Positions 27,740 to 48,494 of a stretch of 64,000 bases of DNA are shown here, in pieces; within the stretch, counting starts at the first letter, position 1, and every line of letters starts with the position of its first letter. The notes under the pieces were generated by a model. It searched no databases and was not told the origin of the DNA. It saw only the letters and a list, made by a program, of their open reading frames with translations. The stretch comes from Fimbriimonadaceae bacterium. Its GTDB lineage: Bacteria > Armatimonadota > Fimbriimonadia > Fimbriimonadales > Fimbriimonadaceae. A program made the translations under genes and the position numbers. The stretch spans positions 124,001 through 188,000 of the forward strand of contig JAHCHO010000004.1 in NCBI GenBank assembly GCA_026129685.1, in the 5' to 3' direction.

Positions 27740-27816
27740 TTGTCCTGTACCTGGTCGGTCGATTCCATCCGCGCTGCTCGTCGTTAGCGGCGAGTCTCTT
27801 GGCGATTGGTGATACG

Positions 27817-27909: not shown

Positions 27910-27916
27910 TGTCGGA

Positions 27917-31144: not shown

Positions 31145-31148
31145 CCGC

Positions 31149-32957: not shown

Positions 32958-33025
32958 GGAAGGCGCTTCTCGGAGGGAGTTCTCGCCTTGCGCCCGCAAC
33001 CGGACGATCGCCAGCGTACCGTCAT
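32954..33025 (-). CDS. Possible 23-residue leader peptide of the SARP gene
   Basis: A short open frame with ATG at 33025, 7 nt after a TAGACT -10 box, ending in TGA that overlaps the GTG start of the SARP-AAA gene. Its product would be basic (many Arg, Lys). No Shine-Dalgarno precedes the SARP GTG, so translation of the leader could carry ribosomes onto it. It may also be chance. Confidence 0.35.
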   Translation of the reverse strand: MTVRWRSSGCGRKARTPSEKRLP

Positions 33026-33067: not shown

Positions 33068-34252
33068 TCAAGGGGTGCCATCGGGCGTCGGCGCCTCGGC
33101 CTTGGCCGCGGGCGGATGGTGTGGGGGCGGGGTTTCGATAACGCCCTTGAGGGTCATGAGACCGATCGTCAGGCTGACGAAGGTGCCGGCGAGGATGATG
33201 GAGGCGCGCATCGCGGGATGGCGCGAAGGCGACCGATCTAGCCAGGGCAGGAACAGCATTCCAAGCGAAATCAGACCGGGAATGACGACGGTCGCCAAGA
33301 CCTCGTACCCCTGGGGCACGATCTTCAGCAGCTCGTACAGGCCCAAGAAGTACCACTCGGGCCGGGGGGTGAAGTCGGTCCCGGCGGGGTCGGCCATGGC
33401 CTCGATGGCCGGGGGAAAGGCGAGGGCCAGGTATACCACGATGCCGAGGCCCACGAGCACGACGATCGCATCGCGGAACAGCTGAACGGGGAAGAAGGGA
33501 ACGGGTTTGCCCTTTTGCGGCAAGACGGGGCCCGCGATGTGGAGTCGGCGCACGAGGTACAGGTGCAACCCGGTCAGGACGACGAGGGACGCGGGCAGGA
33601 GCATGACGTGAATCGCGTAGAACCGGGTCAGCGTCAGGGCGCCGACCTCCTCGCCGCCACGGATCAGCCTCAATAGGTCCGGGCCGACAAACGGAACGGT
33701 GGCGGCAATGCGCGTGCCCACCACCGTCGCCCAATAGGCTTTCTGATCCCACGGCAACAGGTAGCCGGTAAAGGAGAAGCCCAGCACCACGTTGAAGATG
33801 AGGACGCCGAAAACCCACGTGAGTTCGCGAGGCTTCTTGTAGGACCCCCAGTAGAACACGCGCAGAATGTGGAGCACCACGGTGACGACGATCGCTCCCG
33901 ACCCCCACATGTGAAGTCCCCTCACAAAGGAACCCAGGGGGACGGTCTCGGTCAGGTGCTTCACCGAGTGGTAGGCGCTCGACGGGCTCGGCGCATAGTA
34001 CATCGCCAGGGCGAATCCGGTCACGAACTGGAAGAGCAGCAGGGTCAACAGGAGGTTGCCGAGGGTCTGCCACCAACCGACGCCGGGAGGCATCGGTTCG
34101 TCAAGGTTCTTTCGGACGAAACCCCACCAGCCCAGGCGCAAATCCGTCCAGTCCCGTAGGCTGGGTCGCTCGAGGCGCAGGGCCTCTTCTTGGGTCTCGG
34201 GAACGGGCACGTTCTCGACGGGTCGCTCAGGGCTCAGGGTTCTTCGACTCAT
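33068..34252 (-). CDS. Cytochrome b of a Rieske/cytochrome b complex
   Basis: A 394-residue inner-membrane diheme cytochrome b. Heme ligand His pairs lie on two helices (RGLHMWGSG plus VVLHILR; AIHVMLLP plus GLHLYLVRR). The Qo-site motif PEWYFLG follows in the C-terminal half, so both the b6-like and subunit IV-like parts are in one chain. It oxidises quinol and passes electrons to the Rieske protein, whose gene ends 3 nt upstream. The Pro/His-rich C-terminal 30 residues are low complexity. It is the last gene of the nitrate-reductase-like operon. Haloarchaeal nar operons also pair NarGH with Rieske and cytochrome b. Confidence 0.92.
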   Translation of the reverse strand: MSRRTLSPERPVENVPVPETQEEALRLERPSLRDWTDLRLGWWGFVRKNLDEPMPPGVGWWQTLGNLLLTLLLFQFVTGFALAMYYAPSPSSAYHSVKHLTETVPLGSFVRGLHMWGSGAIVVTVVLHILRVFYWGSYKKPRELTWVFGVLIFNVVLGFSFTGYLLPWDQKAYWATVVGTRIAATVPFVGPDLLRLIRGGEEVGALTLTRFYAIHVMLLPASLVVLTGLHLYLVRRLHIAGPVLPQKGKPVPFFPVQLFRDAIVVLVGLGIVVYLALAFPPAIEAMADPAGTDFTPRPEWYFLGLYELLKIVPQGYEVLATVVIPGLISLGMLFLPWLDRSPSRHPAMRASIILAGTFVSLTIGLMTLKGVIETPPPHHPPAAKAEAPTPDGTP

Positions 34253-34255
34253 GTT

Positions 34256-34765
34256 TCAAACGCTCCGCTGGACCCAGATCTTCCCCTCACGGACCTCGAC
34301 GGCGTGCCGAACAAGGGGTTTCGGCGGCGGGCCGGAAACGACGGTGCCCCGATTGTCGAACACGCCGCCGTGGCAAGGGCAGAAGTAGCGGTTCTTGTCC
34401 GCTTGAAACTTGATCCGGCAACCAAGGTGGGTGCAGGACGGGTCGAGGGCGACGATGCCCTCTTCCGACCGGACGAGGTACACCACGTAGGTACGGTCCA
34501 CCATCTCGTAACCGTCCTTGACGCGAACGGTGAACGGGACTTCCTTGGTTTCGCCCTCTCCCAACGCACCCTCATCGAGGACCGGCACCCACTGCTTCAT
34601 TTGCCGGTGACGCAAGGGAGAGCCGAGGAACCCGAGGACGGGACCGAAAACCGCGCCGAAGACGGCGAGATTGATCGCCCCGACCGACCAGGCCATGAAC
34701 TTTCGTCGGCTGACGACCTTCTTCTGGCCGTTCTCGCAGTTACCGCAGTTTTGGCATTCACACAT
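34256..34765 (-). CDS. Rieske iron-sulfur protein
   Basis: A 169-residue membrane-anchored [2Fe-2S] protein. The cluster motifs CTHLGC and CPCHGG hold the two Cys and two His ligands. A Tat-type SRRKF and one hydrophobic helix (about residues 24-46) export and anchor it. Ahead of this there is an odd cysteine cluster MCECQNCGNC (Cys at 2, 4, 7, 10) that would stay on the cytoplasmic side. Rieske proteins rarely have this. It probably works with the cytochrome b encoded next. Confidence 0.93.
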   Translation of the reverse strand: MCECQNCGNCENGQKKVVSRRKFMAWSVGAINLAVFGAVFGPVLGFLGSPLRHRQMKQWVPVLDEGALGEGETKEVPFTVRVKDGYEMVDRTYVVYLVRSEEGIVALDPSCTHLGCRIKFQADKNRYFCPCHGGVFDNRGTVVSGPPPKPLVRHAVEVREGKIWVQRSV

Positions 34766-34777
34766 GGGGGTATCCGT

Positions 34778-35917
34778 TTAGGGGTAGTAGCGAATCCGGA
34801 TCGCGTCCGGCGAGTCCCGATCGATGGTGCGTAGCAATCCCTCGGCGATTCGTTGCGACTTGTGGTCTCGGCCGGGCGAAGGTTCGCGAAGGAACCCGAG
34901 GTCCTTCTCGTCTTGAACGATCGCCTCGGTGAGGGCGGTGCACGCCGCCAAGAAAGGCGCCACGAACGCGTGGTTGAACCGGGTGAAGGGCGAGGTGGCG
35001 ATCAGCAATCCGACCGAGGTCAAGTGGTAGATGTAGATCGGCATGATCCACCCGGCGGCCCCACCTTGGTTCAGCCACATCGTCAGGAAGCCGCTGAGAA
35101 CGGTGTGGAACAGCAGGTTCACGAACAGGAAGTCGCGACCGAGGGTAACGCCGTTGTCGATAAACCGGTCCGTTCGGTAGCGTACGTAGACGTACAGAAC
35201 GCCGGTGAACACCGCCGCCCCAGAGAGCAGGGGCAACAGCTTGAGCGGATGAGTGAGGGCGACGTCGGCCCGGGTCGGGTTGAAGATCTGCATCAGGACG
35301 TCGGCGAGCATCAGCCCCAGGAACCCGTACAGGATGAGGCCGTGCCACAGCCAGCGAACCCGGTCCTTGCGCCAAACCGAAGCGACGAGCAGTCCGTCCA
35401 CCACGAGCGACCGCACGAACACCCAGGCGGCCCGCCCTCGGCCAAATCGCGCGATCTTGGGGCCGAGCCGGCGCAGTCCGGCGTTGCCCGCCCAGTAGGC
35501 GAGGACTCGAACGGCGAAGACCAGCGCGAACAAGCTGACGAACAGGAAGAACAGGGCCACGTTGCGCGTCGTCAGGAGCGAGCCGACCTTGAAGGCAAGG
35601 GGAATCTGGGTGGGGTCCCAGGGCATCTCCCTCAGTTGGGCGTGGAGGATCGCCGCGTCTTGGTCGGAGAGCATGTCGGGCTTGGTGCCCGGCATCATGC
35701 CCCGGCCCTTGCGCAGGATCGTCATGAACTGCTCGTCGGTGAGCTTGGTCTTGGCGATGGGGGGTCCCAGGCCACCCATCGCGGAGACCCCGTGACATCC
35801 CACGCAGGCGGTGGTGGAGAAGACGTCCTTCGACGGGGCAGGCGTCGCCACCTTGGGTTGCGCAAGGAGCGTGCCCGCAAGAGCGGCGACGGAGAGGACC
35901 GCGAGGGCGAGCTTCAT
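34778..35917 (-). CDS. Cytochrome c fused to NarI-like membrane cytochrome b
   Basis: A 379-residue fusion. The signal peptide (about 1-19) leads to a class I cytochrome c domain (heme motif CVGCH at about 38-42, likely Met ligand in GRGMMPGTK). Then come about six transmembrane helices with His residues (WLWHGLILYG, LLFHTVLSGF, YHLTSVGLL) and a SPFTRFNHAF stretch like the Pf..lvH segment of NarI. It would join the periplasmic cytochrome c pool to the cytoplasmic reductase. It overlaps the beta-subunit gene by 4 nt (ATGA). Confidence 0.82.
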   Translation of the reverse strand: MKLALAVLSVAALAGTLLAQPKVATPAPSKDVFSTTACVGCHGVSAMGGLGPPIAKTKLTDEQFMTILRKGRGMMPGTKPDMLSDQDAAILHAQLREMPWDPTQIPLAFKVGSLLTTRNVALFFLFVSLFALVFAVRVLAYWAGNAGLRRLGPKIARFGRGRAAWVFVRSLVVDGLLVASVWRKDRVRWLWHGLILYGFLGLMLADVLMQIFNPTRADVALTHPLKLLPLLSGAAVFTGVLYVYVRYRTDRFIDNGVTLGRDFLFVNLLFHTVLSGFLTMWLNQGGAAGWIMPIYIYHLTSVGLLIATSPFTRFNHAFVAPFLAACTALTEAIVQDEKDLGFLREPSPGRDHKSQRIAEGLLRTIDRDSPDAIRIRYYP

Positions 35918-36594
35918 CGTTTCACCTCCGCGAAGCTGCCGTCCGGCACGCTCGAAGACGCCTGCTCAGCCATTGGACCGAGGTAGCAGGTCGTCGGTAC
36001 GGTCTTCGCCTCCGGGAGAAGGTGGAAGGGTTCGCGACCGGTCTCGGACCTCTGCTCGGCGACGTACTTGCTGACCGGACTCTCGGGGTCCTCGAGATCG
36101 CCGAAAATGCGCGCGGTGGTCGGGCAAGCCACCACGCAGGCCGGGTCGAGGGACTGGTCCACCCGGTGCGCGCAGTAGGTGCACTTCCGCGCCACGTTCT
36201 GGTTGAGCCGCGGCTTGACGTAGTCGCGCTCGTAGGCCTCGTCCTCGTTGAGGTACCAGCGGTCGGAGCGGACCAGGTAGACGTTTCCGTAGGGACAGGC
36301 GGCGACGCAAGCGCCGGTCCCGCGACAGCGATCCTGGTCGATCAGGACGATGCCGTCGGGTCGGCGAAAGATCGCTTTGTTCGGGCAGCCCTTGAGGCAA
36401 GGCGCGTCCTCACAGTGGTTGCAGAGGACGGGCAGATAGACCCGCTTGACATTGGGGAACGTCCCGGCCTCGATGTTCAAGACGCGCGCGAAGAACACGT
36501 CCATCGGCGTGCCGTTCTCCTGCTTGCAGGCGAGGGTGCAGGCGTCGCAACCGATGCAACGGGTCAGGTCCACCAGCATCGCGAGCTTGGCCAT
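35914..36594 (-). CDS. Four-cluster Fe-S subunit of molybdoenzyme (NarH/PsrB-like)
   Basis: A 226-residue ferredoxin-like beta subunit with four cysteine motifs: CIGCDACTLAC, CNHCEDAPC with a following CP, the third CRGTGACVAACP, and CTYCAHR with a distal ACVVACP. In the third the second Cys is replaced by Thr (C-x5-C-x3-CP), as NarH has Trp in its [3Fe-4S] motif, so a [3Fe-4S] centre is likely. It is shorter than NarH (about 500) and nearer NrfC/PsrB in size. There is no signal peptide. It transfers electrons between the NarI-like subunit and the molybdenum subunit. The ATG overlaps the previous stop by 1 nt (TAATG). Confidence 0.9.
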   Translation of the reverse strand: MAKLAMLVDLTRCIGCDACTLACKQENGTPMDVFFARVLNIEAGTFPNVKRVYLPVLCNHCEDAPCLKGCPNKAIFRRPDGIVLIDQDRCRGTGACVAACPYGNVYLVRSDRWYLNEDEAYERDYVKPRLNQNVARKCTYCAHRVDQSLDPACVVACPTTARIFGDLEDPESPVSKYVAEQRSETGREPFHLLPEAKTVPTTCYLGPMAEQASSSVPDGSFAEVKR

Positions 36595-39032
36595 TACTTC
36601 ACCCTCCGGACGTCGACTCGCGTGTCTTTCCAGTGCTGGCCAGGGGCGTACACCGCGGGCAGATAGTAGTTCTCGTGGGTCGGTTTGACCTTCTGGTGCG
36701 TGTGGACGCTGTGGTACTTGCCGGCGCCGAGGAAGCGGTCCCACCAGCCATGGTCGACGCAGAGCACGCCCGGCTTGATCGTCTCGGTCACGAGCGCCCA
36801 GACCTGGTACGCGCCGTTTCGGTTGAAGATCTCGACGGGGTCGCCGTCGGCGATGCCGCGATCGGCGGCATCCCGGGGGTTGATCTCAACGACCGGCTTT
36901 CGATTCACGTTCATGAGAAGCGGGTTGTTGCAGTGGGTGGAGTGGACGCGCCACTTCGAGTGGGGGGTGACGATGGACAGCGGAAACGCGCGGTCCTCTT
37001 CCGGCAGGTGCTCGAAGGCAGGCTTGAAGGTCGGGAGGGCCTCGCCGAGCTTCTGAAAGACCTCCTCCTCTTTGAAGAACTCCATCCGACCCGTCTTGAG
37101 AAACTCGCGCTGCGCGCCTTCGGGGAAGGGGTACGCCCTTGGCGGGAAGAGCCTGTCCTCAAGGAACTGCTCGTCGCAACCGACCTCCGGGTCGTGGACC
37201 TTCAGCCGGACGGGTCCCTTCTGAAGTTGCTCGACGGTGATGCCCGCGACCTCTTTGCCTCCGTCTTCGAGCATCATGCGGATGGCGTCGAGCTCGTCGA
37301 ACTCGAAGTGGGGAAGCAAGGACGGGTCCACCCTTCGGACCAGTTCGCGGACCATCCAGAGTTCCGTGCGCGAGTCGTAGCGGGGAGTGAGGACCTCCTG
37401 CTGCATTTGCAGGTACGGGTGACAGCTCGTCCCGACCAACTCGACCTTTTCCCAGAAGGTGGGGGCGGGAAGCACGACGTCGGCGTACTCGCAGGTCGGC
37501 GTCATCGAGAAGTCCACGACGACGAACAACTCAAGGTCGTCGATCGCTTTCTTGATCGGATCGCTGAACTCGGTGACGAGAGGGTTCCCGTGCGAGACGA
37601 ACAGCGCCTTGAACCCGCTCTTGGGAAACTTGATCTTGGGGTTCATCGTGGCGGTCGGCTTGCCCATCGTGAAGTAATGCATGGGGACGGCGTTCGGCCG
37701 CTTGCCGCCGGGGAACCACCAGGCGGAGACGTCCAGCCGGAAGTGGTGTTGGCCGGAATAGATGGAGACGGACTCGCCGGGTTTGCCGTGCGCCCCCACC
37801 AGGGCGGAGAGCAACAGCACGGCCCGGATGGTGAGGTCGCCGTGCAAGCGGTGATTGAGGCCCATCCCGATCACGATCGAACTGGGACGGTTCACGGCGT
37901 AGTCGCGGGCGAGTTGCCGGATGGTGTCGGCGGGGATGTCGGTGACGCGCGACGCCGCTTCCAGCGTGTAAGCGTCGCTTCGCAGTTCGTCCTCGATCAG
38001 GTCGAATACCGTGCGGACGGTCACGGAGCGGCCCTCGACCTCGACCGTTCTGTGGCCACGAAGGGCGGGCCGGATCCCGTCGCCCAGGTCAAGGGTGTCC
38101 ATGGGCAAAACGGTCCAGCCATCGGTGACCTCGTTCCAGACGACGAACCGGTCGTCGCCGCCCATGCCGAGATCGCTCGCCCGCAGCCGCCGACCATTGT
38201 CCTCACGGACGCAAGTGCCGAAATCCGTGTACTTGCGCAGGAACTCCTCGTCCAAAAGGCCGTCGTCCAGGACGACTCGGCACATGGCGAGGGCGAGGGC
38301 GGCGTCGGTACCGGGCTGGATCGGCAACCAAAGGTCGGCGCCCTTCGCGGTCTGGCTGCAACGGGGATCGATCACAACGATCTTGCAGTTGTTCCGCTGC
38401 TTGGCGACGCGGGTCAGAAACTGGGCGTCGGGGATGCGGGTTTGGAAGACGTTGCTGGACCAAAGGATCGCGGTCTTGGCGTGGCCCCAGCTCTTGGTCT
38501 CGCATTCGACGCAGTCGATGCCCATCGTATGGGTGAAACCCATCGAAATGTCGCCGTTGAAGTCGTACGCCGTCGCGAAGGACATACCCAGGAGGGCCGC
38601 CATGCGGACTTGGGCTCCCTTCTGGACGTAGCCCGTTCCGACGACCTGGTTGAAGAGGAGCATGCTCTCCGGCCCGAACTCGTCGCGGATCCGGATCATC
38701 CGGCCGGCGATGTGGTCCAAGGCCTCGTCCCACATGGCGACCTTCCACTGCCCGGCCCCGCGCGCGCCCGTCCGGATCAGAGGGGTCTTGACGCGGTCTG
38801 GGCCGTAAATGAGGTGGGTCATGGACATCCCCCGCAGACATCCGCGAGGGTTGTACTCGTCGCACGGGTAGTCCGCAGCGGGCTTAAGGTCGACGATCGT
38901 GTCGTTCACGACCGTCGCGAGCCAGCCGCACGCGCCGGTGCAGTTCGGGCTGTCGGTGGTACGGACGACCCGCGCCACGCCGGGCGGGGATTCGGTCGGG
39001 TGTCTTCCGGGTACTGCGTGTCGCGTCGCCAT
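36594..39032 (-). CDS. NarG-like molybdopterin oxidoreductase, catalytic subunit
   Basis: An 812-residue bis-MGD enzyme of the DMSO-reductase family. The FS0 region is TDSPNCTGACGW, then PRGCLRG. Against NarG (H-x3-C-x3-C) an Asp takes the His place. YDFNGDI lines up with YDWYCDL of NarG, whose Asp binds Mo; SNVFQTRIPDA and PGTDAALALAM also match NarG. The C-terminal cofactor domain holds PHSKWRVHSTH. There is no Tat signal, so it probably faces the cytoplasm, fitting the two NarK genes. NarG is about 1250 residues, so this is a compact form. Nitrate reduction is inferred from context. The ATG at 39032 is used because an upstream in-frame ATG lies inside an operator. Confidence 0.85.
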   Translation of the reverse strand: MATRHAVPGRHPTESPPGVARVVRTTDSPNCTGACGWLATVVNDTIVDLKPAADYPCDEYNPRGCLRGMSMTHLIYGPDRVKTPLIRTGARGAGQWKVAMWDEALDHIAGRMIRIRDEFGPESMLLFNQVVGTGYVQKGAQVRMAALLGMSFATAYDFNGDISMGFTHTMGIDCVECETKSWGHAKTAILWSSNVFQTRIPDAQFLTRVAKQRNNCKIVVIDPRCSQTAKGADLWLPIQPGTDAALALAMCRVVLDDGLLDEEFLRKYTDFGTCVREDNGRRLRASDLGMGGDDRFVVWNEVTDGWTVLPMDTLDLGDGIRPALRGHRTVEVEGRSVTVRTVFDLIEDELRSDAYTLEAASRVTDIPADTIRQLARDYAVNRPSSIVIGMGLNHRLHGDLTIRAVLLLSALVGAHGKPGESVSIYSGQHHFRLDVSAWWFPGGKRPNAVPMHYFTMGKPTATMNPKIKFPKSGFKALFVSHGNPLVTEFSDPIKKAIDDLELFVVVDFSMTPTCEYADVVLPAPTFWEKVELVGTSCHPYLQMQQEVLTPRYDSRTELWMVRELVRRVDPSLLPHFEFDELDAIRMMLEDGGKEVAGITVEQLQKGPVRLKVHDPEVGCDEQFLEDRLFPPRAYPFPEGAQREFLKTGRMEFFKEEEVFQKLGEALPTFKPAFEHLPEEDRAFPLSIVTPHSKWRVHSTHCNNPLLMNVNRKPVVEINPRDAADRGIADGDPVEIFNRNGAYQVWALVTETIKPGVLCVDHGWWDRFLGAGKYHSVHTHQKVKPTHENYYLPAVYAPGQHWKDTRVDVRRVK

Positions 39033-39088: not shown

Positions 39089-39106
39089 CTATGACGGTCG
39101 TCATAG
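39089..39106. promoter_or_regulatory. Crp/Fnr-type palindrome, molybdoenzyme promoter
   Basis: CTATGACGGTCGTCATAG: 8-bp arms around a 2-nt centre, or ATGAC-N4-GTCAT in Crp/Fnr spacing. The centre lies about 65 bp before the molybdoenzyme ATG (39032). The same 18 bases occur at 45080-45097. Confidence 0.75.
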
Positions 39107-39136: not shown

Positions 39137-39152
39137 TATGACGGGCGTCATA
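39137..39152. promoter_or_regulatory. Crp/Fnr-type palindrome, nnrS promoter
   Basis: TATGACGGGCGTCATA, the same arms with centre GG. It is centred about 41.5 bp before the nnrS-like ATG at 39186, the class II activator position if transcription starts at the ATG. A GATGAT sequence (39175-39180) is a candidate -10. Confidence 0.75.
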
Positions 39153-39185: not shown

Positions 39186-40553
39186 ATGTCCCAGACCGTC
39201 CGACCTTTGAGGGTAGTGCCGGCGCGCGCTCCCGTGCGCTCGATGAACGATCGAGCCGACGTCTCCATCTACCGGCCGTTCTTTTTGGCGGGCATGGTCT
39301 GCGTCCTGACGGTAGGGTGCCTATTGGGGGCGACCGCTTTGCTCGGAATCAGCCGGCAGGCCAGCTATACGGCGAACGCCTGGACGCCGTATGTCCTGGC
39401 GCACGCCAACTCACAGCTATTCGGATGGGTCGGGTTCTTCGTGCTGGGCTTCGCGCTTCAGCAACACGCACCGACCGAATCCAAGAAGCGCCTGTTCCAT
39501 CGCCTCGCGTTTCTGTCCATGCAGAGCATGGCGGCCGGAATCGCCCTACGGTTTGTCGCCGAGCCGTTGGTCCGGATCGACCGACCCCTGTGGCTACCCG
39601 TCGGGGTGGCAGCGTGCCTCCTCCAAGCGCTGGCGGTCGTGCTCTTCCTCGCCAACACGCAACTGACGCGGCATCGTTCCGGCGCCCCGACGACGTGGAC
39701 CTCGAAGTTCGTCTTCGCGTCCCTGTTTTGGTTTCTGGCGGTGGCCCTGGCAGAACCCATCGTTTTCGCCCTGTCCCATCGGTCGGACGCGCGGGCGTCC
39801 ATCCTGTTCGTGGCGGAGTGGTTCGCACCCTTGAGGGAAGCGCAGTTCCTCGGCTTCGCGGCGATGATGATCTTCGGCGTGTCGCTCACCAAGTTTGGGA
39901 CCTGCTTCGGTTGGAAGCCGGCCCATCGAACGCTGGGAGAGATCGGATTCGTTCTGTGGACCTTCGGGTTGATCGCCCGCATGGTGGGCTGGAACCGGAC
40001 CTTCGCCGCCGGTATGTCGCCCGGTTCGGCGGGACTCTACCAGGCGGGGGGCGTGCTGATCGCGTTGGCAACGGTGGCGCTGTTCGCGGCCAGCCGGCTT
40101 TACGAACGCCCAGATCGTCCCGCCCGGAGCCACAAGTTCGTCCGAGGGGCGTACGGCTGGCTGGTCCTCGCGGGGCTCCTTTTGGTCCTGGAGCCCCTGC
40201 ATCTGGCCGCGATCGGCCAGCCGTTCTCGCACGCTTATACCGGAGCGATTCGGCACGCCGTCACCGTCGGCTTCATCAGCCAAATGATCGTTGGCGTCTC
40301 GATGCACGTCGTCGCCCGGATGCACGGCCTGGCGGAGGAGCGGCTGGCCGGGCTGTGGTCGGTGTTCGTCCTGCTGAACCTAGGGAACGCGGCCCGAGTT
40401 GGCCTCGAGACTCTTACCGATTACCAGGTTGCCGCTTTCGCACCGATGGGCTGGACGGGTTTCGTCGAGTTGCTCGCCCTCGGCGTCTGGGCGATTCACG
40501 TCGGCGGTCCCCTGGTTCGCACCAGACTGAGGAGGCGGGCCTATGCCTGTTAG
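39186..40553 (+). CDS. nnrS: NnrS-family heme/copper membrane protein
   Basis: A 455-residue polytopic membrane protein with about 12 hydrophobic helices. The opening SIYRPFFLAG and HANSQLFGWVGFFVLGFALQ match NnrS, whose members help bacteria resist nitric oxide and are usually controlled by NO-responsive Crp/Fnr regulators. Its place between a nitrate-reductase-like operon and a Crp/Fnr gene fits that. The stop overlaps the regulator gene by 11 nt. An internal ATG at 39243 would remove a polar stretch only; the upstream ATG is kept because it fits the operator spacing. Confidence 0.82.
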   Translation: MSQTVRPLRVVPARAPVRSMNDRADVSIYRPFFLAGMVCVLTVGCLLGATALLGISRQASYTANAWTPYVLAHANSQLFGWVGFFVLGFALQQHAPTESKKRLFHRLAFLSMQSMAAGIALRFVAEPLVRIDRPLWLPVGVAACLLQALAVVLFLANTQLTRHRSGAPTTWTSKFVFASLFWFLAVALAEPIVFALSHRSDARASILFVAEWFAPLREAQFLGFAAMMIFGVSLTKFGTCFGWKPAHRTLGEIGFVLWTFGLIARMVGWNRTFAAGMSPGSAGLYQAGGVLIALATVALFAASRLYERPDRPARSHKFVRGAYGWLVLAGLLLVLEPLHLAAIGQPFSHAYTGAIRHAVTVGFISQMIVGVSMHVVARMHGLAEERLAGLWSVFVLLNLGNAARVGLETLTDYQVAAFAPMGWTGFVELLALGVWAIHVGGPLVRTRLRRRAYAC

Positions 40554-41274
40554 GGCACCCGTCTGGGAGGGGGGTAGCCGACCGGAGCGCCCCCCCACCG
40601 TCGCCGTCGTCGAAGCGTGCACGCTCCTGAACGGGGTTGCGCCCGAGCACCGGGACCGGCTCGTCTCCGAGACGTACCTCGCCTACGCGGAGCGGGGAGA
40701 GGTCATCTGGTTCGCCGGGGCCGACTGTCGATTCGCGGCGGTCGTCGGCGTCGGGTTCGTTAAGATGACGCGCACGACGCCGCAGAGCACGTCGGTCACG
40801 GTCGAACTGATGGGGCCGGGACAGAGCCTGGGGATCATCGCGGCGGTCGAGGGGCGGGTGTACCCGCTCACGGCGATCGCCGTCACGAACTGCTGGTATC
40901 TCAAGGTCCCGAGCGAACTCCTCCGCCAAGTCTACGAGGGAAGCGCGATCCTACGCGACCAGGTTCTGCGCTCGATGTCGCCCCGATTGCGGCGCGCGCA
41001 CGATATGATGGCGCGGATGTCGAGCACCAAGGTGGAGCAGCGGATCGCGGCGGTCCTTCTGTTGCTCATGGACTCGTACGGCGTCAAGGGGTCGTGCGGG
41101 GTGACCCTGTCCGTTCCACTCACGCGCCAGGATCTGGCGGAGATGGCGGGTACCACGGTCGAGACGACGATCCGCGTGATGAGCCGATGGACCAAGCGAA
41201 AGCTGCTGAGCGCCGAGAGACAACGGGTGACGATCCTCGATCCGGTTGGGTTGCTCGGCACGGAGACTCCGTGA
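40543..41274 (+). CDS. Crp/Fnr-family transcriptional regulator
   Basis: A 243-residue regulator with a cNMP-type sensory beta-roll (about residues 30-145), a long dimer helix and a C-terminal winged helix (about 165-240). The recognition helix reads TTVETTIRVMSRW, keeping the Glu and Arg of Fnr-type helices with Ile where Fnr has Ser. The Fnr iron-sulfur cysteines are absent (only a single Cys, in VVEACTLL, near the N-terminus), so a heme/NO sensor (DNR/NnrR-like) or ligand-free type is more likely. It overlaps nnrS, and the three palindromes at 39089, 39137 and 45080 are its probable sites. Confidence 0.9.
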   Translation: MPVRAPVWEGGSRPERPPTVAVVEACTLLNGVAPEHRDRLVSETYLAYAERGEVIWFAGADCRFAAVVGVGFVKMTRTTPQSTSVTVELMGPGQSLGIIAAVEGRVYPLTAIAVTNCWYLKVPSELLRQVYEGSAILRDQVLRSMSPRLRRAHDMMARMSSTKVEQRIAAVLLLLMDSYGVKGSCGVTLSVPLTRQDLAEMAGTTVETTIRVMSRWTKRKLLSAERQRVTILDPVGLLGTETP

Positions 41275-41299
41275 GGAGAAGGATCGAGGCCCAAGTCTC

Positions 41300-41791
41300 A
41301 TGAAACGTCACCCGGCTCTGCAGCCCTTCTCGAGGGATCACAACGTCGGCCTGGTGTTCGCGCGGCGCCTTGCGAGAGGCGACGACGCGGGCGACGAGTT
41401 TGCCCGACTCTGGGCGGACGAATTGGACGCCCACTTTCGGGAAGAGGAGGCGTTGCTGAGCCCCCTCTTGAGCGAGGCGATTCGAGAGAAGCTTCTCGAG
41501 GACCACCAAGCGATTCGTCGTCTCGCGATGGACTTGGCCAATGCGGACCTCGCGCTCCTGGGCCGGTTGCTCGATGCGCACATCCGGTGGGAGGAGCGAG
41601 CGCTGTTTCCGACGATCGAGGCGACCGCCACCGAGGCGCAACTCGCGACCCTCGCTCGGCAGACCGCCGAGGTCGAAGCCCGCCGAGCGTCCTCAACGTG
41701 GGCGCCGAGGCGAGGCGAACTGAACCGGCCATCCACCGAGACGCCGGTACCTAGCGATGGACCCCAGGGGGGCCGAGGTTCGATAGGATAG
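41300..41791 (+). CDS. Hemerythrin HHE-domain protein
   Basis: A 163-residue protein whose first 120 residues form a four-helix hemerythrin-like fold. It has the metal-ligand pattern H (SRDHNVG), H-x3-E (AHFREEE), H (EDHQAI) and H-x3-E (AHIRWEE). The C-terminal 45 residues are Arg/Pro/Ser-rich and probably disordered. Di-iron hemerythrins of this type (YtfE/RIC-like) bind NO or O2 or repair Fe-S clusters. It is 25 nt downstream of the Crp/Fnr gene, so it is probably part of the nitrosative stress response here. Confidence 0.85.
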   Translation: MKRHPALQPFSRDHNVGLVFARRLARGDDAGDEFARLWADELDAHFREEEALLSPLLSEAIREKLLEDHQAIRRLAMDLANADLALLGRLLDAHIRWEERALFPTIEATATEAQLATLARQTAEVEARRASSTWAPRRGELNRPSTETPVPSDGPQGGRGSIG

Positions 41792-41795
41792 AGAC

Positions 41796-42116
41796 ATGGC
41801 AAAGCTCCCCAAGCGCTACGAACGGTTTCTCGAGAAGTACCCCGAGATCGCACGGGCGTACCACTCTCTGGGAGAGGCGACGGCCCAGGCTGGACCGCTC
41901 GACGAGAAGGCCCGGTCCCTGGCGAAGCTCGCGATCGCGATCGGCGCGCGACAAGAGGGGGCGGTGCGCAGCCATGCCCGGCGCTCGATCGAGGCGGGCG
42001 CAACGGTCGACGAGATCCGGCACGTGGCCCTGCTGGCCACCACCACGATCGGCTTTCCGAACATGATGGCGGCCCTGTCTTGGATCGAGAAGGTTTTGGA
42101 GGAATCCGAGGCCTAG
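41796..42116 (+). CDS. AhpD/carboxymuconolactone decarboxylase-like protein
   Basis: A 106-residue all-helical protein with the CMD/AhpD layout: DEKARSLAKLAIAIG, then HARRSIEAGAT and EEIRHVALLA-like helices. The redox pair CxxC-x2-H of AhpD is lost (sequence QEGAVRSH), so peroxidase-partner activity is unlikely. The gene is 4 nt from the hemerythrin gene and is probably co-transcribed. The exact function is unknown. Confidence 0.8.
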   Translation: MAKLPKRYERFLEKYPEIARAYHSLGEATAQAGPLDEKARSLAKLAIAIGARQEGAVRSHARRSIEAGATVDEIRHVALLATTTIGFPNMMAALSWIEKVLEESEA

Positions 42117-42153: not shown

Positions 42154-43479
42154 TCAGCAGGGCTTTTCGGCGTTCCTCCGCGCGTAGTACCAGTGGTTCA
42201 GGATCACGTTCAGGGCGTAGAAAACCGCGGCCCCGTAGAAGAAGTTCGTCGGTGATCCGGTGTTCGCGATGATCGCGCCGAAGGCGACCGAGAACACAAA
42301 GGGGCCGTAGGCGGCGATCGCCGAGGTCCAACCGATCACGCCGCCCGCTTGGCGTGGCGGGAAGATCATCGGCATCTGCTTGAAGGTGGAGGCGTTGCCG
42401 ATGCCGCTGAAGAAGAACAGACCGAGCATGAAACCAAGGAACCCCGGCCATTGCTGCAGGCTTTGCGGGTGGGTGTAGCCGGTGACGCCGATCGCGCAAA
42501 CGAGAAGCCCGATCCCGCTTAGGGCGGTCACTCTCGCGCCGCCCAGTTTGTCGCTGATCGGACCGAACAAGGCGCGCACCGCCGCCCCGATGAAGGGCCC
42601 GATGAACGCGAACTTCAGGGGTTCGGGCGCGTTCGGGAAACCGCCGTAGACCTTGCCGATCAACAAGGGAAAGGCCGCCGAGTACCCGCTGAAAGAACCA
42701 AAGGTCATGATGTAGAGGGAGGTCATGATCCAAGTGTGCTTGTCGCGGAAGATGTCGAGCTGCTCACGGAAGGTGGCTTTGACGGGCACGCTACGCAAGC
42801 CGAGCCAGGCTACGACCGCGCCGATGAGGACAAAGGGCGCCCACACGTAGGCGGCGTTCTGGAGCCAGAGGTCGCTCTTCGCCTCGCCCTTGGTGAACGT
42901 CTGGGGGTTGCCGATCAGAGAGACGCCGATGATCCAAGGAACGACGAACTGGGTGACGCTCACGCCGAAGTTTCCGATCCCGGCCTGGAGCCCGAGGGCG
43001 GTGCCCTGGAGCCGCTTGGGAAAGAACAGGCTCGTGCTGGGCATGAACGAGCTGAAGTTCCCGCCGCCCAGCCCGGCGAGAAACGCGAGGGCCAGGAACG
43101 TTCCGTAAGGCGTGGTCGGGTCCGTCACCGCGTAGCCCCACCCGAGGGCGGGCAGGACGAGCAACAGCGTCGAGACGGCGATCGTCTTGCGCGTTCCGAA
43201 CAGCGGGATCAGGAAGGTGTGGACGATGCGCAGGGTGCCGGCGGCCAGGCCAGGCATCGCGTTCAGCCAGAACAGCTGCTGGGTATCGAACTTGAACCCG
43301 ATGCCGGAGAGCTTCACGACGATCGCGCTGACCATGAACCAGGTCGCGAAGGAGAGCAACAGGCAGTAGGTGGTGATCCAGAGGGTTCGCCACGCGATCG
43401 CGGCGCCCTCGGACGCCCAGAAGCCCTCATCCTCGGGATTCCAGGTTTCGGCGGTTGGTGGGTTTTTCGGGTTGGTCAC
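42154..43479 (-). CDS. narK: NarK-family nitrate/nitrite transporter (second copy)
   Basis: A 441-residue major-facilitator transporter with 12 helices. The nitrate-signature GLGGGNFSSFMPSTS on helix 5 and GIGNASTFKQMP on helix 11 place it in the NNP family, with binding Arg on helices 2 and 8 (TLRIVHTF and AAVRALFG). It probably exchanges nitrate and nitrite across the inner membrane for the cytoplasm-facing reductase. It lies 22 nt downstream of a second narK and is likely in the same transcript. Confidence 0.9.
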   Translation of the reverse strand: MTNPKNPPTAETWNPEDEGFWASEGAAIAWRTLWITTYCLLLSFATWFMVSAIVVKLSGIGFKFDTQQLFWLNAMPGLAAGTLRIVHTFLIPLFGTRKTIAVSTLLLVLPALGWGYAVTDPTTPYGTFLALAFLAGLGGGNFSSFMPSTSLFFPKRLQGTALGLQAGIGNFGVSVTQFVVPWIIGVSLIGNPQTFTKGEAKSDLWLQNAAYVWAPFVLIGAVVAWLGLRSVPVKATFREQLDIFRDKHTWIMTSLYIMTFGSFSGYSAAFPLLIGKVYGGFPNAPEPLKFAFIGPFIGAAVRALFGPISDKLGGARVTALSGIGLLVCAIGVTGYTHPQSLQQWPGFLGFMLGLFFFSGIGNASTFKQMPMIFPPRQAGGVIGWTSAIAAYGPFVFSVAFGAIIANTGSPTNFFYGAAVFYALNVILNHWYYARRNAEKPC

Positions 43480-43501: not shown

Positions 43502-45046
43502 TCATGGGCGTCCCGCCGGGACGGCGGTGGGCGCCTCGGTCAAAGAGGGAAGGGGGACGGTTCGACCGTCAAGCGAAACGCTCGGCGCGTCCTGCTTGCG
43601 GCCCATCTTCAGGATCACGAGGTGCATCCATACGAGGCATCCGATGCTGAAGAGGGCGAGGAACAGCCAACAACTGGTCCATAGGCCCGACCAGCGCAGC
43701 AGGTATCCGAAAACGATGGGGCAGAAGAACCCGCCCAAGCCGCCGATGACGCCGACAAGCCCACCGACGACGCCGACGTCGTTCGGGAAGTACTCGGGGA
43801 TGTGCTTGTAGACGGCCGCCTTCCCAACCCCCATCATGATACCGGCGAGAAACACCAGGGCGGTGAAGACCCAGACGTTGGCCTGGAAGTAGACGTGCGT
43901 CACGCCACGGGCCAGCAACTCCTTCTTCTTCACCGCTTGTCCGGGCTCGACGACGGGCTCGTGCCAGGAACGGAACGCGGGCAGAATGAGGGTGCCCTCC
44001 GGCTCGCGAACCCCGTCGCTCGCCGGCTTGCCGCGCAAGGGGTACGACTGGTCACCGATCTTGATCGTGCCGCTCTCCACATCGGTGACGACGCCCGCCC
44101 GTTCCGCCATGACGCCTTCGCCGGGAGAAGTGAGGTCCATGCGGGGGGCGACGAGAAGGAGAAAGAACACGGCGCAGGCGCTGAGGACCCAGTACATCGT
44201 CGTGCGCGCGCCGAACTTGTCGGATGCCCAACCACCGAGCGCGCGAATGACGCCAGAGGGCAGGCTGAACACGGAGGCGAGCATGCCCGCCATCGCGAGG
44301 CTCATGCCGTAGACGTTCAGGTAGTAAGGAACCAGCCACTGGGCCAGCGCGACGAAAGCGCCGAAGACGAGGAAGTAGTACGCGCCAAAGCGCCAGACCC
44401 GCACCTGGCGAAGGGGAAGGAGGGAGTTGCGCCAAGTCTTGCGCTGGGCGTCGGCGAGACGCCTGTTCTGGGTGGCGAAGGCGAACACCAGCGCCATAAG
44501 GGCAAGCACGGCCGCATAGATCAGGGGGAGTTGGCGCCAACCCTCGAGGTGCTTGCCGCCGTCGGTCAGGCGCTGAAGGAGGGTCGGGGCGCCCAGGGTG
44601 GTCAGGGCGGCGCCAGCGTTGCCGACGCCGAAGATCCCAAGCGCGGTGCCCTGCCGTTCGCGCGGGAACCAGAGCGAGGAGTAGGCGATTCCGACCGCGA
44701 AGGCCGCGCCCGAACTGCCGAACATGAGGCCGGCCCAAAACAGCCCCCAAAACCCGTTGGCAAACGAGACGAGGGTGGTCGAAGCCGCCGCGAAAAGCAT
44801 CAAGGTCACGTACACGGGCTTCCCACCGTAACGATCCGTGAGCATGCCGACCGGTAACCTCAGGAGCGAGCCGGTGAGGATGGGGATGCCGATCAGCCAA
44901 CCGATTTGCGCCTTGTCGAGGGCGACGAGCCGATTGTCGGCCAAGAAGGTGACGAGCACCCCGTACATCGTCCAGACCGCGAAACAAACGGTGAAGGCCA
45001 AGGTGTTCATGGCCAGGATGCGATTCGCTTGGCGGCGGCTCGACAT
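43502..45046 (-). CDS. narK: NarK-family nitrate transporter (first copy) with large loop
   Basis: A 514-residue NNP-family transporter. The helix 5 motif is GSSGAAFAVGIAYSS; conserved Arg lie at RLPVGML and RALGGWAS. Between helices about 8 and 9 there is a polar insert of about 90 residues (roughly 300-390), ending in GVTHVYFQANVW. With the two-copy order, one may be a nitrate/proton symporter and the other a nitrate/nitrite antiporter. The ATG at 45046 lies 6 nt after a TAGGAT box and about 42 bp from the centre of the 45080 palindrome. Confidence 0.9.
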   Translation of the reverse strand: MSSRRQANRILAMNTLAFTVCFAVWTMYGVLVTFLADNRLVALDKAQIGWLIGIPILTGSLLRLPVGMLTDRYGGKPVYVTLMLFAAASTTLVSFANGFWGLFWAGLMFGSSGAAFAVGIAYSSLWFPRERQGTALGIFGVGNAGAALTTLGAPTLLQRLTDGGKHLEGWRQLPLIYAAVLALMALVFAFATQNRRLADAQRKTWRNSLLPLRQVRVWRFGAYYFLVFGAFVALAQWLVPYYLNVYGMSLAMAGMLASVFSLPSGVIRALGGWASDKFGARTTMYWVLSACAVFFLLLVAPRMDLTSPGEGVMAERAGVVTDVESGTIKIGDQSYPLRGKPASDGVREPEGTLILPAFRSWHEPVVEPGQAVKKKELLARGVTHVYFQANVWVFTALVFLAGIMMGVGKAAVYKHIPEYFPNDVGVVGGLVGVIGGLGGFFCPIVFGYLLRWSGLWTSCWLFLALFSIGCLVWMHLVILKMGRKQDAPSVSLDGRTVPLPSLTEAPTAVPAGRP

Positions 45047-45079: not shown

Positions 45080-45097
45080 CTATGACGGTCGTCATAG
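45080..45097. promoter_or_regulatory. Crp/Fnr-type palindrome between narK and moaA
   Basis: CTATGACGGTCGTCATAG, identical to the copy at 39089-39106. It lies midway between divergent starts and is centred about 42 bp before both predicted transcription starts, so one dimer could activate both directions. Confidence 0.8.
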
Positions 45098-45135: not shown

Positions 45136-46149
45136 ATGGTGATCGCCCCCTCGCCCCTCGTTCCGACCGCCCCTTGGACCGACTCGTTCGGCCGTCGGCA
45201 CACGTATCTGCGCGTCTCGATCACCGACCGCTGCAACTTCCGATGTGGGTACTGCATGCCGGCGGAGGGCGTGAACTGGCGTCCGCGCACCGAGATTCTG
45301 AGTTTTGAGGAGATCGAGAGGCTGGTGCGGTTGTTCGTGCGGGGCGGGGTCACCAAGGTGCGGCTCACCGGGGGCGAACCGACGGTTCGCAAAGACCTTG
45401 AAGAACTGATCGAGCGATTGGCTCGGATCGAGGGCTTGGGCGAGGTCTGGATGACGACGAACGGTTCCACGCTCGCGAAGAAGGCCGACGCCTACCGAAC
45501 CGCCGGGTTGAAGGGCCTCAACGTGAGCCTGGATTCGTTGCGGCGCGCGCGGTTTGCCGAAATCACGCGTCGGGACGAACTGCCAAAGGTGCTGGACGGG
45601 ATCGACGCGGCCCTCGCGGCGGGCTTTCGTCCGCTGAAGATCAACGTCGTCGTGATGGCGGGCGTGAACGAAGACGAACTCCTTGATTTCGCCGACTTCG
45701 CCGTGGACCGCCCGGTTCAGGTTCGGTTCATCGAGTTCATGCCGTTCAAGGGAAACGAATGGCAACGAGGCGACCTCTACCCGGCGGCGCAAATGCGGGA
45801 GGACCTGCGAACGCGCTACCGGCTCGCGCCGCTGACCGTGGGTCCCAACGCGGTGGCGCGCGAATTCGCGATCGAGGGAGGGAAGGGGTCGGTGGCCTTC
45901 GTCGCTTCGATGACAGAGAGCTTCTGCGAGGGCTGCAACCGTCTCCGCCTGACCGCCGACGGCATGGTGAAGTCTTGCCTGTTCCTGCGGGCTGATGGCA
46001 ACCTGCGCGATCCGTTGCGCACCGGAGCGGACGATGAGACGCTCGCAAGGATCGTGCGCGACTCGCTCGCGCGAAAGTGGAAGGAGCACCCCCCGATGGA
46101 GAACCTCTTGTCGACAAACGACCGCTCGATGCTGGAGATCGGCGGCTGA
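45136..46149 (+). CDS. moaA: GTP 3',8-cyclase MoaA
   Basis: MoaA is a radical-SAM enzyme that starts molybdenum-cofactor synthesis by rearranging GTP to 3',8-cH2GTP. The 337-residue product has the SAM cluster motif CNFRCGYC, LTGGEPT, and a second C-terminal cluster in CEGCNRLRLTADG with a following CLF. It ends in the conserved Gly-Gly. It is the first gene of the cofactor operon that serves the molybdoenzyme upstream, with the Crp/Fnr palindrome in its promoter. Confidence 0.95.
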   Translation: MVIAPSPLVPTAPWTDSFGRRHTYLRVSITDRCNFRCGYCMPAEGVNWRPRTEILSFEEIERLVRLFVRGGVTKVRLTGGEPTVRKDLEELIERLARIEGLGEVWMTTNGSTLAKKADAYRTAGLKGLNVSLDSLRRARFAEITRRDELPKVLDGIDAALAAGFRPLKINVVVMAGVNEDELLDFADFAVDRPVQVRFIEFMPFKGNEWQRGDLYPAAQMREDLRTRYRLAPLTVGPNAVAREFAIEGGKGSVAFVASMTESFCEGCNRLRLTADGMVKSCLFLRADGNLRDPLRTGADDETLARIVRDSLARKWKEHPPMENLLSTNDRSMLEIGG

Positions 46150-47045
46150 TGCGCGACGTCTCGGCGAAGGTCTCTTCGCTAAGGACGGCGGTGGCCGCCG
46201 CCACCCTTCGTGCGTCTCCGGCAACGGTCGCCGTCGTACGCGAAGGACGCGCCCCGAAGGGGGACCCGTTGCCGGTCGCCCGAACGGCGGCCATTCTTGC
46301 GGCCAAGAACACGCCGAACCTGGTGCCGTATTGTCACCACGTTGCGCTCGATTTGGTGGACGTTTCCTTTTCGTTTGAGATGGACGCGATCACCGCGCGG
46401 GTTCGGGTCGTGGCGGTCGACCGGACCGGGGTCGAGATGGAGGCGCTCACGGCCGCCGCCGTCGCGGCCCTGAACCTCTACGATATGCTGAAGCCGATCG
46501 ACGAGGCGATGCGCATCGAGGCCGTCGAACTGCTCGAGAAGACGGGGGGCAAGTCGGCGTGGGTGCGCCAGCCGTTTCGGGCGGCGATCATCGTCGCATC
46601 CGATCGCTCGTCGTCCGGCACGCGCGAGGATGCGACGGGCCCGACCCTTGCGTCCCTTCTGCGCGAGGAGGGAGCGAACGACGTGAGCCTTGTCGTCGTG
46701 CCGGACGACGTTGGGGCGATCCGGGCGGCGGTCGAGGGGGCCGCCGAGCGGGCGGACCTGCTGTTCGTGGCGGGAGGAACCGGGGTCGGACCGAGAGACG
46801 TGACTCCCGAGGCGATCCTCCCGATGTTGGAGCGTAGACTCCCCGGGGTCGAAGAGCATCTTCGGGCATACGGGCAACGCCGACTTCCGACGGCGATGTT
46901 GTCGCGCTCCGTGGCCGGCCTGTACGGCGAGACGATCGTGGTCGCCCTTCCGGGTTCACCCGGGGCGGCCCGGGACGCGATCGCCGCCCTGTTTCCGTAC
47001 CTTGCGCACGCGCTCGACGTGCTCCGGGGAGGGGGCCACGAGTGA
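46149..47045 (+). CDS. MoaC-MogA fusion
   Basis: A 298-residue fusion of two cofactor steps. Residues 1-140 are MoaC (cyclic pyranopterin monophosphate synthase): KGDPLPVA, VPYCHHV and YDMLKPID with the catalytic Lys. Residues 145-298 are a MogA/MoaB domain (molybdopterin adenylyltransferase): VASDRSSSG, GGTGVGPRDVTPE, and a SRSVAG segment. The ATG overlaps the moaA stop by 1 nt. MoaC and MogA act on separate, non-consecutive steps, so the fusion probably sets dosage rather than channelling a direct product. Confidence 0.92.
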   Translation: MRDVSAKVSSLRTAVAAATLRASPATVAVVREGRAPKGDPLPVARTAAILAAKNTPNLVPYCHHVALDLVDVSFSFEMDAITARVRVVAVDRTGVEMEALTAAAVAALNLYDMLKPIDEAMRIEAVELLEKTGGKSAWVRQPFRAAIIVASDRSSSGTREDATGPTLASLLREEGANDVSLVVVPDDVGAIRAAVEGAAERADLLFVAGGTGVGPRDVTPEAILPMLERRLPGVEEHLRAYGQRRLPTAMLSRSVAGLYGETIVVALPGSPGAARDAIAALFPYLAHALDVLRGGGHE

Positions 47046-48253
47046 ACCTGATCTCGTACTGGGAGGCGCTCGAGAGGGTGCGGTCGCTCGTTCCGCCGGT
47101 GATCGCGGAGCACGTCGGACTTCCTGAGGCCCTTGGGCGGGTGCTCGCCATCCCGGTGACGGCACGGTGCGACCTGCCTCCCTTCGACAACTCGGCCGTG
47201 GACGGATACGCCCTGCTCGACCTCGACGTCCGGGCGGCACGAACCACCTACCGCCTAGGAAAGGAATCGCGGGCGGGCGATCCGCCGCTCGGCGAGGACT
47301 GGGAGCCCGGAACGGCGGTGCGGGTGTTCACCGGTGCCCCGGTCCCCCAGGGGACGGGGGCCGTCGTCATGCAGGAGATCGTTCGACGCGACGGCGACCG
47401 CCTCGACCTCGACCAGCCTCCTCGCATGGGAGCGCACATTCGGCGACGCGCCGAGGAGCACGAGTGTGGCGATCCTGTTCTCGAGCCTCCGCTCGTCCTA
47501 GGTCCATCCGCGATCGCGGCGGCGGCGGCGGCGGGAGCGGATCGCCTTGAAGTCGCGCGTCGCCCGTTGGTCGGGATTCTGGCGACGGGAAGCGAACTCG
47601 CGGCTCCTGGCGACGAACTTCGGGCCGGCCAAGTGTACGAGGCGAACGCCTTCGGACTCGCCCATGCCGTCCGATCCCTGGGCTTGCCCGAGCCACGGGT
47701 CGAGCGGGTCGCCGATGAGGGGCTTGCGACGCAGTACGCCATCGACCGGCTCGCCGACGAGGTCGACGTGCTCGTCGTGACGGGCGGCGTCTCGGTGGGC
47801 GACTACGACCTTGTGCGACCGGCGCTTGCGACCGCCGGATTCGAGACCGCCTTCTGGGGGGTTCGCATGAAGCCGGGCAAGCCCGTCTATCTCGGGGTCA
47901 GGCAGGGCAAGGTCAGCTTCGGCCTTCCCGGGAACCCGCTCTCGACCTTGGTGACCTGGAGCGTTCTCGTCCGGCCTTACCTCCTGGGGCGCCTGGGGTT
48001 GCCCTGCGAACTCCCGCGTTTGCAGACGGTGTGCGGCGATGCGATCGAACGCAAGGCGGGTCGGCTCGAGTTCGTGCCGGCGTCCTGGGGCGATCCCCTT
48101 CGGACGACGGTTCGGCCGATGGGCCCAAGGGGGTCTCACCGGCTCGACGGAGCGGTGCGGGCAGAAGCGCTCATCGTGCTGGAAGAGGATCAGGAAAGCG
48201 TCGCTCCCGGCGAAACCGTAACGGCGACCCCTTGGGTCTGGGGGCTCCCATGA
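47042..48253 (+). CDS. moeA: Molybdopterin molybdenumtransferase MoeA
   Basis: MoeA inserts molybdate into adenylylated molybdopterin. The 403-residue product shows PPFDNSAVDGYAL, the ATGSELAAPGD region, TGGVSVGDYDLV, and GLPGNPLSTL in the central domain. A beta-barrel C-terminal domain closes it. The GTG start overlaps the stop of the moaC-mogA fusion (GTGA). Confidence 0.94.
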   Translation: MNLISYWEALERVRSLVPPVIAEHVGLPEALGRVLAIPVTARCDLPPFDNSAVDGYALLDLDVRAARTTYRLGKESRAGDPPLGEDWEPGTAVRVFTGAPVPQGTGAVVMQEIVRRDGDRLDLDQPPRMGAHIRRRAEEHECGDPVLEPPLVLGPSAIAAAAAAGADRLEVARRPLVGILATGSELAAPGDELRAGQVYEANAFGLAHAVRSLGLPEPRVERVADEGLATQYAIDRLADEVDVLVVTGGVSVGDYDLVRPALATAGFETAFWGVRMKPGKPVYLGVRQGKVSFGLPGNPLSTLVTWSVLVRPYLLGRLGLPCELPRLQTVCGDAIERKAGRLEFVPASWGDPLRTTVRPMGPRGSHRLDGAVRAEALIVLEEDQESVAPGETVTATPWVWGLP

Positions 48254-48492
48254 ACACGGTTCACGTACGCTACTTTGCCGTGCTTCGCGAACGCCGCGGC
48301 CTCGCGTCCGAAACCGTGGTGACAGACGCAGGGAGTTGGGCCGACCTTTACCGCGAACTCGATGCGGCCCACCGGTTCGGCCTCGATCCGAGCGTCGTTC
48401 GGGTCGCGGTCGCGGACGCCTTCGTCGAACCCCACGCCGCCGTCGCCGATGGGGCGACGGTGGTGTTCATCCCACCGGTGGCGGGAGGCTGA
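48250..48492 (+). CDS. moaD: Molybdopterin synthase small subunit
   Basis: An 80-residue ubiquitin-fold sulfur carrier ending in PPVAGG. The terminal Gly-Gly is adenylated by MoeB and thiocarboxylated. The N-terminal VHVRYFAVLRERRG is typical of MoaD. The ATG overlaps the moeA stop (ATGA). Confidence 0.94.
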   Translation: MNTVHVRYFAVLRERRGLASETVVTDAGSWADLYRELDAAHRFGLDPSVVRVAVADAFVEPHAAVADGATVVFIPPVAGG

Positions 48493-48494
48493 CG

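Follow-up and report, generated by a model that had tools for sequence, protein, structure and literature searches.

Gene content and conservation of the operon

The stretch of DNA analysed here (the window) comprises 64,000 nucleotides, C13:124001-188000, from a Fimbriimonadaceae bacterium with a genome of 3.9 Mb that is 99% complete. It contains five genes that may together encode a respiratory nitrate reductase. They specify a molybdoenzyme (A), an Fe-S subunit (B), a cytochrome c/NarI-like fusion (C), a Rieske protein (D) and a cytochrome b (E), and they lie in this order on the minus strand, from 39032 to 33068 (Table 1). A and B overlap by 1 nt (TAATG) and B and C by 4 nt, and the gaps are 12 nt between C and D and 3 nt between D and E. 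An earlier reading of the DNA letters (the sequence-only reading) had described five genes that overlap or nearly touch and had placed them correctly. It had also seen no NarJ chaperone gene, and the only NarJ/Nitrate_red_del match in the genome is indeed on contig C18 beside an NxrA gene, with none in the operon. A promoter scan returned nothing, and a terminator scan did no better than chance.

The A-B-C-D-E order was kept in 19 of the 20 neighbourhoods that we fetched from relatives. In a few of them a small gene is inserted between A and B; inspected by eye, the insertions encode between one and three proteins, small or membrane-like, and no NarJ was recognised among them. Among 113 species genomes of the order, A was present in 32, and E (at least 66% identity) was found in the identical 32, one of which has a second E-like copy. 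The other 81 genomes have neither gene at that level. Therefore, the conserved order and the co-occurrence of A and E are not due to chance.

Relatives with the operon come from Fimbriimonadales, from records labelled Chthonomonadaceae, from other metagenome-assembled genomes (MAGs) of Armatimonadota and from bin HRbin16. A is 68-84% identical among the operon carriers of Armatimonadota, and a phylum-wide search found it at 67-73% identity in a few further families. A scan of 84,980 species genomes with the two most conserved peptides matched records of Armatimonadota and, besides these, a single record labelled Methanoregulaceae and a single MAG contig of Acidobacteria. Judged by its contig and coordinates, the Methanoregulaceae record corresponds to a genome from the same family as the window. 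A MAG labelled Acidobacteria (L113) carries the whole operon with an A that is 73% identical, through either horizontal transfer or a misbinned contig.

The catalytic and electron-transfer subunits

A matches PF00384, PF01568 and PF04879. Its best family model is TIGR03479 for type II dimethyl sulfoxide (DMSO) reductases, with 459 bits against a cut-off of 985, and it reaches 251 bits against the NarG equivalog TIGR01580, for which the cut-off is 1084. Its best solved relative is PcrA (5e7o), with 425 bits to the family profile over nearly the full length. The AlphaFold model of A was poor, with a predicted local distance difference test score (pLDDT) of 58. Since the start at 39032 (MATRH) is conserved in about 30 relatives, A has 812 residues and no twin-arginine translocation (Tat) signal, as had been read from the sequence. 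A start at 39104, which gives the longest open reading frame, was rejected because it falls inside a palindrome and the relatives begin at MATRH. Inspection of the sequences likewise found no twin-arginine N-terminus on A in any of 20 relatives. Neither A nor B has an export signal, which, together with import by NarK, is consistent with a cytoplasmic active site.

Asp161 of A is invariant and aligns with the Mo-ligand Asp of NarG and PcrA. The motif for the FS0 cluster, TTDSPNCTGAC, is also invariant. Canonical NarG has one His and three Cys at FS0, while A has an invariant Asp27 where NarG has His49 and Kuenenia NXR (KsNXR) has Cys67. In KsNXR, FS0 is coordinated by three Cys and one Asp, but through Asp71 at the next ligand position, and the Asn that precedes the second FS0 ligand has been proposed to coordinate the substrate (PMC8387239). 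The corresponding Asn in A is N30, and it is invariant.

We placed A in a maximum-likelihood tree that sampled NarG, PcrA, ClrA, haloarchaeal Nar, NXR and an enzyme from an Alisedimentitalea plasmid, without SerA, DdhA and EbdA. The A clade branched as the sister group of the sampled type II enzymes as a whole (support 92/87; 96/96 for the group excluding A), and several terminal branches were long. The approximately unbiased (AU) test rejected a position of A within the canonical NarG clade (p=7.3e-9), while a position inside the wider NarG/Pcr/Clr/pNar group was not firmly rejected (p=0.063). A thus appears to form an early-branching line of the Asp-ligated (type II) DMSO-reductase family, outside NarG. 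The sequence-only reading had called A NarG-like and had proposed its phylogeny as a check. Taken strictly, that label is not supported, given the AU test, the TIGR01580 score and the Asp in place of His at FS0, and the tree offered no clade of known substrate instead. The plasmid of Alisedimentitalea, which is conjugative, carries a distant homologue of A (33%; L119:6672-12201) that has Asn at FS0 position 1 and adjoins a chlorite-dismutase-family gene, TorD and a cytochrome c.

A NarH-type identity is not supported for B, which is short (226 aa) and has ArrB as its best profile. One of its cluster motifs, C-x2-[TA]-x2-C-x3-C, lacks one Cys, and the position is Thr or Ala in all members. The same position is Trp in NarH and Tyr or Phe in other type II beta subunits. 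In lacking this Cys, B agrees with the type II beta subunits, among which NarH has a [3Fe-4S] cluster.

C consists of a signal peptide, a class-I cytochrome c domain (C38xxCH42, M74/M75) and a membrane domain that resembles NarI. The membrane domain has no Pfam match, and its NCBIfam match is QmoC (NarI-like). In a fold search with the AlphaFold model (pLDDT 78), the membrane part matched EtfD (Z 12.5) and E. coli NarI (Z 10.8) best, with unrelated helical proteins at 7-10; the soluble part matched cytochromes such as c-553. The best Foldseek E value for C was 0.025. Four residues of the membrane part, His192, His298, His316 and Lys226, are invariant in 18 C proteins. Motif comparison pairs them with NarI His56, His187, His205 and Lys86 and puts Leu in the place of His66. 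On this mapping by motif, C keeps three of the four heme-b histidines of NarI, and one is missing in all 18 proteins. In NarI, His66 and His187 are the ligands of the distal heme.

D has a twin-arginine N-terminus (SRRKFM) and the cluster motif CTHLGC/CPCHGG. Ahead of the Tat motif, its N-terminus MCECQNCGNCENG (window 34720-34765) is rich in Cys, and only some relatives have a similar one. E contains b6 and subunit-IV parts, a PEWY Qo motif and two His pairs, and it has no CxxCH. D and E thus have the Rieske cluster motif, the two His pairs and the Qo motif of bc/b6 complexes. In the tree of cytochromes b, E was sister to the bcc-type cytochrome b of G037 (99/100), which is 60% identical to it, and away from haloarchaeal NarC. 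The sequence-only reading had cited haloarchaeal nar operons as a known case of this gene combination; kinship of these bc genes with haloarchaeal NarB/NarC was rejected for the cytochrome b on this grouping, and E descends from a local bcc complex. The cytochromes b of G037, G107 and Deinococcus have a C-terminal CxxCH domain, which is absent in all 23 operon E proteins. E therefore lacks the c-heme ending of these bcc complexes, and the c-heme is instead on C. The host genome has a separate Rieske/cytochrome b on contig C16.

Nitrate-related genes and a shared palindrome

Upstream of A are genes for an NnrS-like protein, a Crp/Fnr-family regulator, two NarK-like transporters and Mo-cofactor synthesis (Table 1). 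The linkage of the operon to NarK, NnrS, the Fnr/Crp regulator and Mo-cofactor genes is far above chance and recurs in relatives. NarK1 and/or NarK2 were found within neighbourhoods of ~19 kb in 13 of the 20 relatives, as well as in the window, and a query with E. coli NarK agreed. The conserved NarK linkage on which the sequence-only reading had made its nitrate assignment depend was thus found. The Mo-cofactor genes include two fusions, MoaC-MoaB/MogA and MoaE-ThiF/MoeB, at window positions 46077-47045 and 48336-49961.

A palindrome with Fnr/Crp geometry, TATGACGNNCGTCATA, has four copies in the genome: two before A (the first reads TATGACGGTCGTCATA), one between NarK1 and MoaA and one before a second MoaA. 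Three matches were found in the window against 0.03 expected, and many relatives also have the palindrome upstream of A. It probably marks a small regulon for nitrate and Mo-cofactor genes.

Table 1. Coordinates of the operon genes, their neighbours and the palindrome copies (window positions unless another contig is named)
Feature	Position	Strand	Length, evidence or remark
A, catalytic molybdopterin subunit	36594..39032	-	812 aa; Pfam, NCBIfam profile, alignment, tree
B, four-cluster ferredoxin-type Fe-S subunit	35914..36594	-	226 aa; profiles, alignment
C, cytochrome c/NarI-like fusion	34778..35917	-	379 aa; profiles, alignment, AlphaFold model, fold search
D, Rieske 2Fe-2S protein	34256..34765	-	169 aa; profiles, sequence
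E, cytochrome b	33068..34252	-	394 aa; profiles, sequence, tree
NnrS-like membrane protein (nitric oxide-related)	39186..40553	+	profile
Crp/Fnr-family regulator, candidate reader of the palindrome	40543..41274	+	profile
Hemerythrin-domain protein	41246..41791	+	profile
Carboxymuconolactone decarboxylase-family protein	41796..42116	+	profile; often linked in relatives
NarK2, NarK-family nitrate/nitrite transporter	42154..43479	-	TIGR00886 302.5 bits, cut-off 311.7; 39% identity to E. coli NarK
NarK1, second NarK-like major facilitator superfamily transporter	43502..45046	-	TIGR00886 185 bits, below cut-off
MoaA, MoaC-MoaB/MogA fusion, MoeA, MoaE-ThiF/MoeB fusion (Mo-cofactor genes)	45136..49961	+	
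Palindrome, copy 1	39090..39105		divergent A/NnrS promoter
Palindrome, copy 2	39137..39152		same A/NnrS promoter
Palindrome, copy 3	45081..45096		divergent NarK1/MoaA promoter
Palindrome, copy 4	C18:3613-3628, own genome		before second MoaA

NapA was found in none of the 113 genomes of the order, and canonical NarG in only one, a genome without the operon. Since NapA is absent and the single NarG is in a non-carrier, the operon is the likely nitrate reductase of the order, and nitrate is the likeliest substrate of A. Homologues of TorD/NarJ and of chlorite dismutase (two queries) were not found by tblastn in the fetched neighbourhoods. In the host genome, NirK is absent, and the matches of NirS and NosZ are below their cut-offs.

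Contig C18 of the same genome encodes a near full-length NxrA-type protein (L041:8054-12130; C18:14056-17523), with 1609 bits to Kuenenia NXR-A (7b04_B). NxrB (415 aa) and the NarJ-family chaperone are at the same locus. NxrA-type loci are present in 9 of the 113 genomes, 7 of which carry the operon. Beside the end of the operon, at window 27806-32999, two large convergent genes were read by eye: one encodes a 1112-aa protein that combines an ATPase-like region with WD40-like repeats at its C-terminus, and the other a 616-aa protein with a regulator-like N-terminus.

A putative menaquinol:nitrate oxidoreductase

We consider it probable, at about 0.6, that the operon encodes one menaquinol:nitrate oxidoreductase with two modules wired in series. 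Quinol would be oxidised at the Qo site of E, which together with D would run a Q-cycle. The Rieske protein would then pass an electron to the cytochrome c domain of C on the periplasmic side. From there, the electron would travel inward via heme b in the NarI-like domain of C, reaching first B and then the Mo centre of A. Nitrate would be imported by NarK and reduced by A in the cytoplasm. On the calculation published for Streptomyces Nar1, each nitrate reduced would move 4 H+ instead of 2. The proposal of the sequence-only reading that a NarI-like subunit is combined with a Rieske/cytochrome b module in one reductase is retained in this scheme.

Streptomyces coelicolor Nar1 is the closest precedent for such wiring. 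It is a cytoplasmic Nar that requires and co-purifies with the bcc complex, in the Nar1/bcc-aa3 supercomplex, and a path from cytochrome c to NarI heme was proposed for it, with 4 instead of 2 H+ calculated per electron pair and a driving force of 505 mV from menaquinol (PMC7931247). We propose the same scheme here. In Streptomyces, however, the enzyme is a canonical NarGHI and the bcc complex is the ordinary oxidase partner. The operon described here has a catalytic subunit other than NarG, includes bc genes of its own and encodes the cytochrome c and the NarI-like subunit as a single protein. Periplasmic nitrate reduction in Campylobacter also depends on a bc complex, Qcr (PMC6195509). In Thermus NarCGHJI, a cytochrome c subunit on the periplasmic side is attached to NarI (PMC7694296), but this NarC is a separate protein, the reductase is a canonical NarGHJI and the operon has no Rieske/cytochrome b.

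Other systems share parts of the gene set. The haloarchaeal nar operon (Haloferax narB narC narG narH; L136, L137; PMC2483277) also has Rieske and cytochrome b genes with type II alpha and beta subunits. It differs in its outward-facing NarG, an EBDH-related subunit, a TorD-family chaperone and a cytochrome b of another lineage, and it lacks a NarI-like or cytochrome c subunit. PcrA shares the Asp Mo ligand with A but has the FS0 His, a longer beta subunit and a position inside the group separated from the A clade. Other Armatimonadota families have periplasmic bc-Nar operons (L127, L129) in which a type II alpha subunit is likewise downstream of Rieske/cytochrome b. These differ in a Tat signal, the FS0 His, a longer beta subunit and a hexaheme cytochrome c, and their alpha subunits are 37-41% identical to A over half the length. 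The hexaheme cytochrome c is encoded between cytochrome b and alpha (L127:4313-9788, L129:106-9433). A literature search, for which most subscription journals were out of reach, found no description of our operon in Armatimonadota. Judging by the papers searched, each kind of component is already known; what is new is how they are combined, together with the fusion in C, the bc module dedicated to the reductase and the deeply branching alpha subunit.

Several results weigh against a series-wired nitrate reductase. The best solved match of A is the perchlorate reductase PcrA rather than NarG, and A falls in no clade with a known substrate. The Z score of 10.8 by which C resembles NarI is below the ~13 attainable by chance among helical bundles, a profile comparison of C with NarI reached no more than 53% probability and covered the C-terminal half, and the mapping of histidines and hemes onto NarI rests on motif. 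The operon is not always intact, as the cytochrome b of one relative (G039) sits ~9 kb away from A, and the fetched locus of another (G169) shows A-C only. Moreover, Lys226, if it matches the quinol-site Lys86 of NarI, may allow C to oxidise quinol directly. This residue and the NarI-like fold of C would suit parallel quinol entries, as favoured in the sequence-only reading, with the NarI-like domain oxidising quinol itself and the bc module feeding the enzyme independently. Series wiring is likelier, because C lacks one heme-b His (in all 18 proteins) and bears the operon's only c-heme, and E has none. With the c-heme on C, it is hard to see where else in the operon a bc module acting in parallel could deliver its electrons, and we regard parallel entries as unlikely. 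bc complexes commonly feed periplasmic nitrite and nitric oxide reductases, so the bc genes might be merely co-transcribed for other denitrification steps, with A-C alone as the nitrate reductase. The host genome, however, offers no NirK and no NirS above the cut-off and has its other Rieske/cytochrome b on C16, and the c-heme is again on C and not on E; we consider mere co-transcription very unlikely.

The substrate and the direction could also be different. A might reduce another oxyanion (chlorate, perchlorate or selenate) and be adjacent to the nitrate genes by regulation only, as the PcrA match and the chlorite-dismutase-family gene beside the Alisedimentitalea homologue would suggest. 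This is rather improbable, given that both chlorite dismutase queries were unmatched in all fetched neighbourhoods, the NarK/NnrS linkage recurs, the carriers have no other canonical nitrate reductase and N30, the counterpart of the proposed substrate-coordinating Asn of NXR (PMC8387239), is invariant. Operation in reverse as a nitrite oxidase, with cytochrome c as the electron acceptor and the bc genes used for reverse electron flow, would have a parallel in Nitrobacter, where a NarG homologue feeds a periplasmic NarC homologue via a NarI homologue (PMC7694296), and an Asp-ligated FS0 is found in Kuenenia NXR too, though at another position. Against such reverse operation, which we consider very unlikely, the separate NxrA-type enzyme of the host could serve this purpose, and a Q-cycle module in the operon suits quinol oxidation.

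Beyond the series-wired oxidoreductase, a wider claim can be made, to which we give somewhat less than even odds: that A represents an undescribed nitrate reductase class branching below NarG, NXR, PcrA and pNar, that it is the nitrate-respiring enzyme of the whole order, and that it forms a single complex with a Q-cycle module of its own, reducing nitrate in the cytoplasm with 4 charges per electron pair. If the proposal is true, the coupling of a bc complex to a cytoplasmic Nar, for which Streptomyces spores have so far provided co-purification data and a dependence phenotype, would be genetically hard-wired here. The 4 H+ hypothesis would become testable, and the energy gained per nitrate could nearly double. 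The operon would also explain nitrate reduction without NarG or NapA in Armatimonadota, some of which come from anammox and wastewater communities, and standard narG/napA models at curated cut-offs would miss the nitrate reduction of these bacteria. Finally, the deep branch of A bears on the origin of the NarG, NXR and PcrA enzymes.

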